This document shows, piece after piece, positions 1,902-11,031 of a stretch of DNA of 39,971 nt. Numbering within the stretch: position 1 is the stretch's first letter; each line of letters begins with the position of its first letter. The position numbers and the translations under genes were made by a program. The notes under the pieces are model-generated. The model was not told the origin of the DNA. It saw only the letters and a list, made by a program, of their open reading frames with translations, and did no database searches. This DNA is from Acidobacteriota bacterium (GTDB lineage Bacteria > Acidobacteriota > Blastocatellia > Pyrinomonadales > Pyrinomonadaceae). The stretch lies in contig JAFAOW010000196.1 of the NCBI GenBank assembly GCA_019247455.1, forward strand, positions 1 to 39,971, in the 5' to 3' direction.

Positions 1902-3320
1902 ATGAACGCCAAGAATGTATTGACTTTCGCTGCCGACCAGGAAGCGAGATTCGTCTCTGTGCGCTTTACCGACCTGCCCGGTTCCTGGCATCACCTTACC
2001 TTTCCGATCGCCCAATTAAGCGAAGACAGTTTTGAGGACGGCTTCGGATTTGACGCGTCGTCCCTGCGTGGATGGGCCGCGATCCACGAGTCGGACATGC
2101 TTCTCGTGCCGGATCCTTCGCGGTTCTGGATCGATCCTTTCACGGAAGAGACGACGCTTTGCCTCATCGCGAATGCCGTCGATCCCATCACAAAAGAGGG
2201 TTACTGGCTCGACCCTCGCTCGGTCGCCCAGCGTGCCGAAAGCTACCTGAATTTTACGGGTATAGCTGACACCGCGTATTTTGGGCCCGAGGCGGAATTT
2301 TTTGTATTCGACGAAGCGCGGTTTCACAACGAGCAGTCGTCTGCCGGGTATTTCGTAAATTCTGAGGAGGGCCACTGGAATTCGGGACGCGAAGGCGGTG
2401 ACAATCCGAACAACGGACTCCATATCCGCGCGAAGGAAGGGTACGTCCCCGTTTCGCCGCTCGACACGCTCGTGGATCTTAGAAACTCGATCTCCGCGAT
2501 CCTCGGCGAGGTCGGTATCGACGTCGAATGCCATCACCACGAGGTTGCGACAGCGGGGCAGTGCGAGATCGATTTCCGATTCTCGAACCTTCTGCACACA
2601 GCCGACAACCTCATGCTCTTCAAGTATGTCGTCAAAAACACGGCGTACGCCGCTGGCAAGACGGCGACCTTCATGCCGAAACCGCTGTTCGGCGACAACG
2701 GGTCGGGAATGCACGTCCATCAGTCGCTGTGGAATGGCGGCGAGCCGCTGTTCGGAGGCGATCAATATGCCGGGCTGTCTGAAATGGCGAAGTTCTACAT
2801 AGGCGGCCTTCTCAAGCATGCTCCCGCAATTGTCGGCTTCGCGGCACCGACGACGAATTCCTACAAACGTCTCGTCCCGGGTTTTGAGGCCCCTGTGAAT
2901 TTAGCCTACTCGGCACGAAATCGGTCTGCGGCGGTGAGAATACCTATGTTCTCAGCGTCGCCGAAGGCGAAGCGGCTTGAGTTCAGGCCGCCAGATCCAA
3001 GCTGTAACCCGTACCTGACCTTTGCTGCCTTGCTGATGGCAGGCCTTGACGGCATTCAGAACCGGATCGATCCAGGTGAGCCGCTCGACAAGGATATTTA
3101 CGACCTTCCGCCCGAGGAACTCGCGAATGTTCCAAGTCTCCCCGGCAGTCTCGATGAGTCTCTCAAGGCTCTTGAAAACGACCATGACTTTCTGCTCAAG
3201 GGCGATGTGTTCACGACGAGCCTTATCGATCGCTGGATCACTTACAAGCGCGAGCACGAGATCACGCCGCTGAGGCTGCGACCGCATCCGTTGGAATTCT
3301 CGATGTACTACGACATCTAG
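1902..3320 (+). CDS. glnA: Type I glutamine synthetase
   Basis: A 472-aa cytoplasmic enzyme that makes glutamine from glutamate, ammonia and ATP; length is normal for the dodecameric GSI class. Visible signatures are the N-terminal [11 protein letters not shown] (48-58), the ATP/metal motif GPEAEFFVF (128-136), GSGMHVHQS (267-275), [11 protein letters not shown] (322-332), NRSAAVRIP (340-348) and [15 protein letters not shown] (358-372). [10 protein letters not shown] (397-406, Tyr400) matches the adenylylation site of the GSI-beta type, so control by adenylylation is likely. The start is set by AGGAGA seven bases upstream. It stands alone, with a promoter candidate at 1800 and a hairpin terminator right after the stop. 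No glnB, glnE or amt gene is in the window. Confidence 0.97.
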
Positions 3321-3346
3321 AAGGGCGAAGTACAATGTGGAGAGGC

Positions 3347-3376
3347 GGCCGGTGGCGACGCCGGCCTTTCTTTTTT
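3347..3376 (+). terminator. Intrinsic terminator after glnA
   Basis: GGCCGG (3347-3352) pairs with CCGGCC (3361-3366) around an 8-base loop and is followed directly by TTTCTTTTTT. It lies 26 bases past the glnA stop. Because it sits inside the longest open frame of the next gene, it also argues that gene starts downstream at 3380. Confidence 0.75.
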
Positions 3377-3379
3377 GCT

Positions 3380-3985
3380 ATGCTCAATGCTCTAGTGAAG
3401 GTTGAACCGGTCACATTGGAAGGGAAATTCGTCAAGCTCGAGCCGATGCGGTTTGATCATTTTCCCGCTCTGTGTGATGTTGGGCTCGAACCTTCGTTAT
3501 GGAAATGGACCGCGAACATCGTCGAGAAAGAAACCGATCTCGAGAAGTATGTCCGCAGCGCCCTGGCGGACCGTGACCAGGGCATTGCTCTTCCGTTCGT
3601 GACCATCGACAAGACCAGCGGCGCCATAGTCGGCTCAACGCGATTTGGAAATATTGACCCCAATCACAGAAAGGTAGAGATAGGGTGGACATGGATCAAC
3701 CCAAAATGGCAGCGGACCCGGATCAACACGGAGGCCAAGCTTCTTATGCTCACGCATGCATTCGAAGTGTGGGCCTGTGTTCGCGTTGAGTTGAAGACAG
3801 ATTCGAATAACAAGAGGTCCAGGGCCGCGATGATCCGGATCGGGGCTACGGAAGAGGGCACCCTGCGCAATCACATGATCACGGAGTCAGGCCGAAATCG
3901 GCACTCCGTTTATTTCAGCATAATCGACTCCGAATGGCCGTCGATCAAGGAAGACCTGAACGCAAAGCTCGCCGACCGCGACTGA
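3380..3985 (+). CDS. GNAT family N-acetyltransferase (RimJ/RimL type)
   Basis: A 201-aa cytoplasmic acetyltransferase using acetyl-CoA. The sequence carries the Acetyltransf_3 / RimJ-RimL layout: an N-terminal substrate strand (VTLEGKFVKLEPM), a central beta strand GAIVGSTRFGNI, the strand KVEIGWTWI with WQRTRINTEAK in the place of the acetyl-CoA loop, and the C-terminal GRNRHSVYFSIIDSEWP common in this group. The canonical Q/RxxGxG/A loop is degenerate. The frame is open from 3335, but that part overlaps the glnA terminator, so I use ATG 3380; no clear ribosome site is seen for it. Substrate (protein N-terminus, antibiotic or metabolite) cannot be told. Confidence 0.85.
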   Translation: MLNALVKVEPVTLEGKFVKLEPMRFDHFPALCDVGLEPSLWKWTANIVEKETDLEKYVRSALADRDQGIALPFVTIDKTSGAIVGSTRFGNIDPNHRKVEIGWTWINPKWQRTRINTEAKLLMLTHAFEVWACVRVELKTDSNNKRSRAAMIRIGATEEGTLRNHMITESGRNRHSVYFSIIDSEWPSIKEDLNAKLADRD

Positions 3986-8860: not shown

Positions 8861-9016
8861 ATGAGCTTTCAACTTATCGTTGTTCTTGCCATCATTCTGG
8901 TCGCTGTATTTTTCGCGGGCAGCAAGCTCCTATCGAAGCGAAGGTCCTTCTCAACAAAGGGAGACTGCGGCGAAGACTGCGGTTGCAGTTCGGGCGGCAA
9001 GAAATTACGCTCATAG
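8861..9016 (+). CDS. FeoB-associated Cys-rich membrane protein
   Basis: A 51-aa protein starting two bases after the feoB stop, with AGGATTTGGA as a likely ribosome site. It has one N-terminal membrane helix (LIVVLAIILVAVFFAGSKLL), a basic stop-transfer KRR and a short cytoplasmic tail with CGEDCGCSSGG. This is the plan of the FeoB-associated Cys-rich family, small partners found beside feoB and thought to help FeoB act or assemble. The frame is open further upstream inside feoB, but MSFQ is the natural start. Confidence 0.88.
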   Translation: MSFQLIVVLAIILVAVFFAGSKLLSKRRSFSTKGDCGEDCGCSSGGKKLRS

Positions 9017-9017
9017 T

Positions 9018-9920
9018 TTGAGCGATTCCCTCGACACCAATTGGCTCACGCCCGGCGTGCGTTCGATGCTGTTATCGACGTTCGCCTTTTTCTTGGCCAA
9101 TGCATTTGTAAAGCAGGTCGGGCACATTCCGGCGATGGAGATAGTCTTCTTTCGCTGCGTCACAGCGACGGCAATGTGCCTTGCGGGGCTCTACCGCGCG
9201 AAGGCGGATCCCATTGGGTCAAACCATCTGATGCTCCTTCTCCGGGGGCTGTTTGGGACAACCGCTCTCTTTTGCTTTTTTATAACGCTGCAGCAAATGC
9301 CGCTCGCGTCAGCGCAGACCGTTCAGTATCTCTCGCCGATCTTTACCGCCACGATCGCGATCTTCATTCTTAAGGAAAGCGTTCGGCCGCTGCAATGGAT
9401 ATTCTATGCGGTCGCGTTCAGCGGAGTCCTGGTGATCGATCAGGTGGACACGCGTATCTCACCGTTCTATTTGGCGGTCGGGATAGTGTCGGCCTTCTGC
9501 TCGGGCATGGCGTACAATCTCGTTCGCAGCATGAGAGGGAAGGAGCATCCGCTGACCATCGTGCTGCACTTCCAACTCGTTGGAATGGTGGTGGGATTTA
9601 TTAGCCTCTTTTTCCAGTGGGAGTGGCCGCAAGGATGGGACTGGCTGTTTCTTTTGTTCGTTGGCGTCTTTTCGCAGCTTGGACAGATATTTTTGACGAA
9701 CGCATTGCAGCGGGAGGCGATCGCGGGCGTGGCGATCGTCAACTACACCGGCCTTGTTTACGCGATCACCGTCGGCTGGATCATTTTTGGCGAAGAGCAG
9801 TCGTTATATTCTCTACTGGGAATGGCCCTCGTCGTGGCCGGGGTGCTAATGAGCGTGATGTACGGCCGCCGTCAGCAGCGACTCGCTGCAATGGCCGAGA
9901 TGGACGTGACACAGGCGTAA
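9018..9920 (+). CDS. DMT superfamily transporter (EamA family)
   Basis: About 300 aa with ten predicted membrane helices in two EamA repeats. The first repeat includes STFAFFLANAFVKQVG, EIVFFRCVTATAMCL and the helix LLLRGLFGTTALFCFFITLQQMPLASAQTV (given in parts: LLRGLFGTTALF, ITLQQMPLASAQ); the second ends in AGVAIVNYTGLVYAI and GWIIFGEEQSLYSLLG. Such proteins export or exchange metabolites; substrate unknown. The TTG at 9018 follows the preceding stop by one base and gives a family-like N-terminus; ATG 9069 is the alternative. Position suggests co-transcription with feo, but a role in iron handling is only a guess. Confidence 0.85.
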   Translation: MSDSLDTNWLTPGVRSMLLSTFAFFLANAFVKQVGHIPAMEIVFFRCVTATAMCLAGLYRAKADPIGSNHLMLLLRGLFGTTALFCFFITLQQMPLASAQTVQYLSPIFTATIAIFILKESVRPLQWIFYAVAFSGVLVIDQVDTRISPFYLAVGIVSAFCSGMAYNLVRSMRGKEHPLTIVLHFQLVGMVVGFISLFFQWEWPQGWDWLFLLFVGVFSQLGQIFLTNALQREAIAGVAIVNYTGLVYAITVGWIIFGEEQSLYSLLGMALVVAGVLMSVMYGRRQQRLAAMAEMDVTQA

Positions 9921-9951
9921 CAGAAATGGCCACAAAAGGCAAAAGGCTAAA

Positions 9952-9981
9952 GCATAAGTTGCCACTAGCTTTAGCTAGTGG
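9952..9981 (+). repeat. Left outer inverted repeat (REP-like hairpin)
   Basis: Thirty bases that are the exact reverse complement of 10493-10522. They contain the hairpin CCACTAGCTTTAGCTAGTGG (9962-9981), 8-bp arms around TTTA, preceded by GCATAAGTTG. Confidence 0.9.
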
Positions 9982-10002
9982 AAAAGGTTGAAAGAATAGA
10001 TA

Positions 10003-10018
10003 GGGCTTTAGCCCAAAT
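10003..10018 (+). repeat. Left inner inverted repeat
   Basis: GGGCTTTAGCCCAAAT is the exact reverse complement of 10456-10471 and is itself a small hairpin (GGGCT/AGCCC). It lies just before the transposase start. Confidence 0.85.
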
Positions 10019-10025
10019 GACTCCC

Positions 10026-10454
10026 ATGCCATGGATAAAGATCTGGGTACACTTAGTCTGGTCGACCCACACTCATATACCTTTTCTAACTGACGACATC
10101 CGAAAAAAGGTCTTTCAGCATATTCTTGAGAACGCCCGTGAAAAGGGTATTTTTATTGATATGATCAACGGATACGTCGATCATGTGCATTGCCTCATTT
10201 CCTTGGGGTCAGATCAGAATATTGAGAAAGTTCTACAACTTATTAAAGGCGAGTCGTCGTTCTGGATTAATCAGAACAAGCTTACTAGGACTAAGTTCGC
10301 TTGGCAGGATGAGTATTTTGTAGTGTCCGTAAATCCGGCAGGGCTTGATGCGGTTCGGAGATATATTGCAAACCAGGAAAAGCACCATGCTAAAGTCAGT
10401 TTTCGCGATGAATTCCATGATTTTCTTTCTCGCGCTGGACTTGACGGTCGTTAG
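10026..10454 (+). CDS. REP-associated tyrosine transposase (Y1, HUH family)
   Basis: A 142-aa protein starting MPWIKIWVHLVWSTHTHIPFL, the usual opening of IS200-like RAYT proteins. The metal-binding HUH motif is HVH (53-55, in VDHVHCLISL) and the nucleophile is Tyr113 in RRYIANQEKHH, with Gln117 as the usual helper. FAWQDEYFVVSV is also typical. All catalytic residues are present, so the enzyme may be active. ATG 10017 or a GTG at 9978 inside the left repeat are possible earlier starts. It nicks and joins single-stranded DNA at the hairpins that flank it. Confidence 0.92.
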   Translation: MPWIKIWVHLVWSTHTHIPFLTDDIRKKVFQHILENAREKGIFIDMINGYVDHVHCLISLGSDQNIEKVLQLIKGESSFWINQNKLTRTKFAWQDEYFVVSVNPAGLDAVRRYIANQEKHHAKVSFRDEFHDFLSRAGLDGR

Positions 10455-10455
10455 G

Positions 10456-10471
10456 ATTTGGGCTAAAGCCC
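10456..10471 (+). repeat. Right inner inverted repeat
   Basis: ATTTGGGCTAAAGCCC matches the reverse complement of 10003-10018 over all 16 bases and starts directly after the transposase stop codon. Confidence 0.85.
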
Positions 10472-10492
10472 GAGCTTTCTGCTCCCTGTTAC

Positions 10493-10522
10493 CCACTAGC
10501 TAAAGCTAGTGGCAACTTATGC
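10493..10522 (+). repeat. Right outer inverted repeat, overlapping the mogA start codon
   Basis: Exact reverse complement of 9952-9981. The hairpin CCACTAGCTAAAGCTAGTGG (10493-10512) is followed by CAACTTATGC, and the ATG in that end (10519-10521) is in frame with the downstream molybdopterin gene. Confidence 0.9.
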
Positions 10523-11031
10523 CAGATAGGAATGGGATTTCAGTGGCTGTCGTAACAATAAGTGATACTCGATCCTTGCAAGCCGACGGATCCGGAGACC
10601 GTCTTGTTCAGTTGGTCAATTCGATCGGTGGTGAGGTTCTAGAAAGAATGATCGTTACTGATGATCTGCTCCCATTGCGTGAGCTTCTTTACGCCCTTAC
10701 GGAACGTGAAGACATTAACCTTATTCTGACGACCGGCGGCACCGGGCTCGGGCCTCGTGACAACACGCCTGAAGCCACCCGAGCGGTGATCGACCGCGAG
10801 GCTCCCGGCATCGCCGAGGCGATGCGGCGGGAGACGGCTTCAAAGACATGGATGTCGATGCTCTCGCGCGGCATCGTGGGTACGCGAAACTCGACGCTGA
10901 TAATTAACCTTCCCGGTTCACCGAAAGGAGTAGAAGAATGCTTCGAAGTGATAAGGCCGGTCCTGCAGCACGCTATCGATCAGATCACGGGCAAGACCGG
11001 CCACGGACTCATTCCCCGCAGTACGCGCTGA
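10519..11031 (+). CDS. mogA: MogA/MoaB family molybdopterin adenylyltransferase
   Basis: A 170-aa cytoplasmic enzyme that adenylylates molybdopterin before metal insertion, or a MoaB paralogue of it. Signatures are the opening strand VAVVTISDTRS, the core TTGGTGLGPRDNTPEAT (about 71-87), GTRNSTLIINLPGSPKGVEE and the helix after it. The symbol mogA is by family; MoaB cannot be excluded. No other molybdenum cofactor gene is in the window. The first ATG lies in the terminal repeat of the RAYT element and lacks a ribosome site; GTG 10543, preceded by AGGAATGGGA, is a good alternative start. The 3' end overlaps the convergent gene at 11009 by 23 bases. Confidence 0.9.
   Translation: MPDRNGISVAVVTISDTRSLQADGSGDRLVQLVNSIGGEVLERMIVTDDLLPLRELLYALTEREDINLILTTGGTGLGPRDNTPEATRAVIDREAPGIAEAMRRETASKTWMSMLSRGIVGTRNSTLIINLPGSPKGVEECFEVIRPVLQHAIDQITGKTGHGLIPRSTR

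Follow-up and report, generated by a model that had tools for sequence, protein, structure and literature searches.

A subclass 1.2 TnpAY1 gene between double-hairpin inverted ends in a Pyrinomonadaceae genome and a candidate family of REP-like units associated with it

The tnpA locus and its enzyme

The stretch of DNA analysed here (the window, 39,971 nucleotides) corresponds to contig C103 of a draft, metagenome-assembled genome (G000) that its relatives place in the family Pyrinomonadaceae of the Acidobacteriota; the genomes of relatives are labelled G0xx, and loci Lxxx. Between two genes that presumably encode a DMT-type permease and a MogA/MoaB-like protein, the window contains an outer hairpin, an inner hairpin, tnpA, the inner hairpin inverted and the outer hairpin inverted, in that order (Table 1). 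As the preliminary description had stated, both nested pairs are exact, the left outer repeat (GCATAAGTTGCCACTAGCTTTAGCTAGTGG) being matched by its reverse complement at 30 of 30 positions and the inner pair agreeing at 16 of 16. A repeat finder merges the outer and inner repeats into 67-nt arms that are 81% complementary and spaced 437 nt apart, and each of these arms forms two separate hairpins, one of 8 bp and one of 4 bp, both with a TTTA loop. For three stretches of the window folded as single-stranded DNA, the fold z scores lie between -2.9 and -4.0, and the longest inverted match between the upstream and downstream sides of tnpA (30 nt) was reached by 0 of 100 shuffles. The probable tnpA start codon (ATG 10017) lies 2 nt beyond the end of the left inner hairpin, and the MogA-like gene has its start codon 6 nt beyond the end of the right outer one. 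An Rfam scan of positions 9700-10700 gave no family reaching its gathering score.

Table 1. Coordinates of the hairpins and genes at the tnpA locus of the window
Feature	Position	Strand	Description
DMT-type permease gene (presumed)	8880..9920	+	left side of insertion site
Left outer terminal repeat	9952..9981	+	7-nt symmetric flank, TTG foot, hairpin CCACTAGC-TTTA-GCTAGTGG; solo copies found
Left inner hairpin	10003..10018	+	GGGC-TTTA-GCCC + AA; just 5' of tnpA start codon
tnpA, HUH/Y1 transposase, assigned to subclass 1.2	10017..10454	+	ATG 10017 or 10026; ORF open from GTG 9978; HUH = DHVH; Y motif YIANQEKHH
Right inner hairpin	10456..10471	-	exact inverse of left inner hairpin
Right outer terminal repeat	10493..10522	-	exact inverse of left outer repeat; overlaps MogA-like start codon at 10519
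MogA/MoaB-like gene (presumed)	10519..11031	+	right side of insertion site

The product of tnpA is an open and intact Y1_Tnp domain (87.9 bits in a profile search), and its H-V-H and tyrosine align with residues of ISHp608 TnpA that we take to be the catalytic ones of that enzyme. Across 33 aligned sequences, namely the window protein and 32 hand-chosen relatives, all of which retain Y---Q--HH, the second histidine and the tyrosine are invariant and the first histidine nearly so, and Y115, Q119, H122 and H123 are invariant. The conserved motif residues agree with the earlier prediction of an intact HUH/Y1 transposase, but its label as a RAYT does not hold. The RAYT motif Y---NP is absent from the window protein, which reads YIANQ where E. 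coli RayT reads YIYINP; the NCBIfam model REP_Tyr_transpos (NF047646) gives 27.2 bits against a cut-off of 80, whereas the IS200 TnpA model (NF033573) is passed with 62.7 bits against 55. The protein's motifs DHVH, WQ and YIANQEKHH match the signature of TnpAY1 subclass 1.2, for which Quentin et al. 2018 (PMC6006769) give DH[IV]H, WQ and Y---Q--HH, and also a C-terminal domain of some 30 aa that is particular to it. A predicted model of the protein (mean pLDDT 91) has a predicted C-terminal helix, and the structures closest to it are those of ISDra2/IS608 TnpA (Z 14.7 to 13.3), with TnpAREP (4er8) lower at Z 10.8. Judged by motifs, position in a tree and profile scores, the window TnpA is a member of subclass 1.2, on the IS200 side, and not of class 2.

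It is thus very unlikely that we are dealing with a true RAYT (class 2 TnpAREP) forming a REPtron with a new REP. Such an origin would suit the inverted hairpins around the gene, the solo copies in inverted pairs described below and the fact that the gene is single-copy at its identity level in the genome, but it conflicts with the Y---Q--HH motif, with both profile scores and with a hairpin foot that reads RTTG instead of GT[AG]G.

The genome has no near-identical second tnpA, the next best being 31% identical. A second subclass 1.2-type TnpA on contig C301 (L006 1-620), with the motif YIRNQKEHH and 31% identity to that of the window, is bounded on either side by inverted copies of a hairpin repeat of its own (AGCGAAACCTGTAG), which differs from that of the window. 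Among plasmid records, tnpA has 42 matches, all in the band below 60% identity and the top one at 34.6%, and thus there is no close plasmid carrier among those records.

Hairpin units with and without tnpA

The hairpins were listed in four genomes (G000, G016, G017 and G021), giving 101 places, 89 of them with arms of 5+5 nt. Stem pairing is perfect in 82 of these 89, which comprise 14 arm types; when the 3' arms were redealt, 13.5 perfect stems were expected, with a maximum of 23 in 1000 draws. Thus, the stems vary in sequence but covary, staying paired. In a set of loci partly hand-chosen for having two ends, 125 of 142 stems are perfect. The left and right outer stems of complete units are the same in 22 cases and different in 23 (of 45), each hairpin still being paired. 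A long hairpin between left and right as the conserved structure is ruled out by the 23 units with differing stems, and what is kept is the local hairpin.

Neighbouring hairpins no more than 260 nt apart (93 of the 101 places were used) form 25 inward pairs, 4 outward pairs and 3 same-way pairs, with 0 of the ++ kind; the resulting inward units measure 113-137 nt in 24 cases and 176 nt in one, and up to 249 nt in a wider set. An inner hairpin, GGCTTTAGCC, usually followed by AA, lies at a loop-to-loop distance of 33-43 nt from the outer one in 98 of 159 ends, compared with 0 of 159 after one shuffle of each; in the other 61 ends this rule finds no inner hairpin. The sequence 5' of the outer hairpin is TRAATTG-like, with RTTG as the foot, and over about 7 nt the two ends of a unit are partly symmetric (mean 2.3 versus 1.36, with a maximum of 1.81 in 500 permutations). 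As read from these sequences, a unit consists of an RTTG foot, an 8-bp hairpin with a TTTA loop, about 20 nt, GGCTTTAGCC plus AA, then tnpA or a few nucleotides, and the mirror image of the whole; the geometry is the same in units with and without tnpA. The core of the outer hairpin is, as had been noted at the outset, unlike that of the enterobacterial REP consensus.

That the locus is an ordinary insertion sequence of the IS200 type, left as a lone copy, is very unlikely. Its enzyme does come from the IS200 side, but its ends are inverted where same-strand hairpins would be expected, no tnpB lies within the unit, the next best tnpA of the genome is far from identical, the gene is intact and the stems covary.

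Solitary copies, for which the preliminary description had proposed a search, are present in the genome of the window, and they occur as inverted pairs. There is a third exact copy of CCACTAGCTTTAGCTAGTGG, on contig C275, and GGGCTTTAGCCC is present in four other contigs. Gene-less units with both outer hairpins were found on C275 and C289, while in those on C14 and C272 the right outer hairpin is divergent; the inner pair is present in all four. In the wider genus, a loose pattern (TTGCC-arm-CTTTAG-arm-GG) has matches in 41 of 41 genomes searched, with a total of 657 against 373 for a backward control pattern, overlapping readings being counted. The largest numbers are 72 in G006 (control 10) and 56 in G017 (control 5), and in several genomes the matches are not above the control. 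The excess over the control has a median of 8 in the 21 genomes with a close TnpA and of 0.5 in the 20 without one (one-sided p 0.02, kinship ignored), yet there are matches without a close TnpA in G014, G038 and G039, and a TnpA without an excess of matches in G005, G007, G008, G012 and G036. Hairpin counts therefore track close TnpA only loosely.

G017 has four near-identical units. The similarity of the second copy on its contig C300 to the others stops at both feet; among the remaining three, two have common flanks, and in the third the flanking similarity covers part of the right side. Together, the four units speak for spread, a point weakened by the flanks common to some of them. A form with an ATAGG foot and the same inner and outer plan occurs at 29 places in five flavobacterial genomes (control 0).

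A set of 47 Pyrinomonadaceae units, in which gene-bearing and tandem units were counted and two units come from the Bacteroidota locus L047, showed no clear target duplications. At offset 0 and k 6 there are 3 matches against 0.37 expected, but all are TTTAAA, which is palindromic, so that direct and inverted repeats are indistinguishable at this offset; at offset 1 and k 4 there are 4 against 0.67 expected, with two matches each at offsets 2 and 8.

Relatives' loci, insertion sites and age

The association between hairpins and gene extends to 58 named loci of tnpA relatives, including some from Bacteroidota. In their non-ORF DNA, 117 hairpins of the TTTA/TTCA type lie in the 16.8 kb no more than 250 nt from tnpA, and the 17.4 kb at distances above 700 nt contain 6, an approximately 20-fold lower density. 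At the 55 loci with 100 nt on both sides, 90 hairpins are oriented in the expected way and 49 in the opposite one, and 22 loci have hairpins of the expected type on both sides of tnpA. At 27 of 56 loci, the window included, no more than 1 of 100 shuffles equalled the best inverted match between left and right; at the remaining 29, more shuffles did so. One locus, L043, has short direct repeats (AATTCATAAAATCGGC) in the flanks of its match (3001-3420), stacked at the outer hairpin and resembling repeated feet.

Ten more distant Y1 genes were taken from the genus and from the window's own genome, in one of which (L118) the frame that was read shows no Y1 motif. For seven of the ten, none of the shuffles equalled the inverted match, and the hairpins there have other sequences. 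Four distant genes of the Y---Q--HH kind (L116, L117, L121 and L122) are flanked by exact inverted hairpins of 26-31 nt whose stems are immediately preceded by GTAG or ATAG, resembling the classical REP foot; their enzymes are not RAYTs.

The insertion site itself was followed through the flanking genes. MogA has a match in 37 of 41 genus genomes, some of them weak or partial; 30 MogA loci were compared, and 29 of these, the window's and those of 28 relatives, have the adjoining DMT gene. Among the 29 junctions, tnpA is present in two (G000 and G017) and a gene-less unit in one (G016). Comparison with the empty site, which the preliminary description had also proposed, thus gave 26 of 28 relatives in which no unit was seen at the junction, two of them with a longer spacer of other sequence, and a gene at the site in only 1 of the 28. 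Neither outcome named beforehand as refuting was obtained, since the hairpins are not restricted to this locus and most relatives lack the gene here. The junction of G032 may hold a decayed right hairpin. In G000 (window 10493-10525), G017 and G016 (L126, L125), the unit ends with CAACTT directly before the MogA-like ATG, and a stable hairpin thus occupies the ribosome-binding region of that gene.

Given that G017 carries the element at the same place, and that its TnpA is 76% and its MogA 70% identical to those of G000, the insertion must be old, about as old as the split between these two genomes, and a recent insertion of the window copy is ruled out. The preliminary description had attributed the identity of the inverted pairs to recent movement or strong selection; the first of these is contradicted by G017, and the second, or gene conversion in its place, is favoured by the inner hairpin, which differs between G000 and G017 by a change from GGG/CCC to CGG/CCG made in step in all four arms. 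A two-gene tree places G000 and G017 as sisters (support 0.73) and groups G016 with G026 (0.98), in which no unit was seen, so that the unit of G016 may represent a separate insertion, the loss of a gene or an older state.

A second site is offered by G027. Both G018 and G023 lack its tnpA locus, and their DNA on either side can be aligned with that of G027 (83-88% and 78-81% identity); these flanks are about 30 and 86 nt apart in the two genomes and about 2.5 kb apart in G027. The stretch specific to G027 (L310 2880-4184) contains, alongside the tnpA unit, an ORF of 434 aa that from its sequence we presume to be ATPase-like. With this length and a further gene, it is not a clean insertion of one unit. 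Across 22 tnpA loci of the genus, common neighbours were found in two pairs only (G000/G017 and G002/G033), some contigs ending near the gene.

In Halpernia humi (L055, genome G050), hairpin units are enclosed by amplified, near-identical repeats of 198-231 nt with 12-nt terminal repeats of the ACCTGAGTTCGA type. Nine copies were compared (L246, L251, L253, L259, L260, L264, L267, L269 and L270), leaving out L255, whose ends are 314 nt apart with a poor right end, and copies with one or both ends unfound; direct repeats of 5 bp are exact in seven of the nine and agree at 4 of 5 positions in the other two. These ends and direct repeats point to a different, DDE-type transposon in which the hairpin unit would be nested and which would have carried it.

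Halpernia bears on the possibility that the hairpins are host elements acting in transcription or RNA stability, spread by other transposons or by recombination, with tnpA merely lodged within them. The pattern matches in genomes without a close TnpA and the position of the window's unit directly 5' of a start codon are in keeping with this explanation as well. We nevertheless regard it as unlikely, because hairpins are concentrated 20-fold beside tnpA relatives, the geometry is alike with and without the gene, and the tnpA loci mostly lack common neighbours.

A proposed mechanism and comparison with known systems

We favour, and consider likely, a reading in which this locus belongs to a REPtron- or REPIN-like family of single-stranded DNA transposons with double-hairpin ends, served by a subclass 1.2 TnpA, and is one of the copies that carry the gene. 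The hairpin repeats are probably mobile, and we infer their transposition from sequence comparison. TnpA would bind the TTTA-loop hairpins on single-stranded DNA, for instance on the lagging-strand template; the 5' foot would guide the enzyme, whose tyrosine would cut before rejoining takes place. Owing to its inverted ends, the element presents one cognate end on either strand, which it has in common with REP and REPIN systems and not with IS200/IS605. A TnpA dimer may find its two sites in the pair of same-strand hairpins that lie about 38 nt from each other at an end. Movement by TnpA of the unit that encodes it may be rare, and that of the short units without a gene more frequent. Expression of tnpA could be restricted as well by the inner hairpin, which reaches into the region where translation of the gene starts; units without tnpA have this hairpin too, however, and this speaks for a function in DNA. 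Action on a folded single strand at the foot is proposed by analogy with IS200/IS605 and with TnpAREP (PMC8266576).

More tentatively, subclass 1.2 may constitute a second REPtron lineage, from the IS200 side and independent of RAYTs. Its substrate would be two TTTA-loop hairpins about 38 nt apart on the same strand, recognised by loop, foot and paired stem rather than by stem sequence, with one TnpA dimer on both, and other subclass 1.2 branches in the genus would have hairpins of their own, some (L116, L117, L121 and L122) with a GTAG or ATAG foot resembling that of classical REPs.

The REP-like hairpin family with double-hairpin ends, tied to an IS200-side subclass reported without REPs, is real and widespread. 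In the open-licence literature, no prior report of hairpins of subclass 1.2 was found by title or by the start of the abstract, and a text search for GGCTAAAGCC found no paper on the subject among the titles listed. In Acidobacteriota and Bacteroidota, a subclass described as REP-less can now be linked to repeats that form a recognisable family and give its TnpA a candidate substrate. With a second enzyme/REP pair, the open question of REP movement becomes testable, as does, by comparison, the origin of REPtrons from IS200-type transposases.

Several known systems resemble this family in part. IS200/IS605 elements such as IS608 and ISDra2 share the enzyme fold, the catalytic motifs and the hairpin ends, and no clear target duplication accompanies the Pyrinomonadaceae units either. 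However, the end hairpins of IS200/IS605 are on the same strand and not inverted, whereas here the ends are inverted (25 of 32 neighbour pairs face inward), many units are gene-less and there is no additional tnpA of high identity. REPINs likewise consist of two closely spaced, inverted REP-like hairpins scattered in the genome, but they have one hairpin per end, compared with two in 98 of 159 ends here. REPtrons, with their RAYTs and REPINs, also enclose a gene in inverted hairpins that have a 5' foot, and have gene-less inverted pairs scattered in the genome; they differ in the side from which the enzyme comes, in the foot (GT[AG]G, as against RTTG) and in lacking two hairpins per end at a fixed spacing, with perfect stems of variable sequence and a TTTA loop.

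The TIRtrons, with their TIRYTs (Di Nocera 2013, PMC3733652), are Y1 transposase genes with flanking inverted repeats, and they include examples from Acidobacteria; many of their repeats have GGGGWSAS in common, in contrast to the RTTG foot here, and Quentin et al. 2018 (PMC6006769) assign 20 of the 26 TIRYTs to subclass 2.1. The closest counterpart of the enzyme is subclass 1.2 as set out in the same work by Quentin et al., with DH[IV]H, WQ, Y---Q--HH, a length of about 140-150 aa and relatives in Bacteroidota. There, the subclass is marked 'no' for REP, is generally without typical terminal IS200 structures and comes mostly from Cyanobacteria and Bacteroidetes, whereas the members described here have hairpin ends and gene-less units, and occur in Acidobacteriota too.
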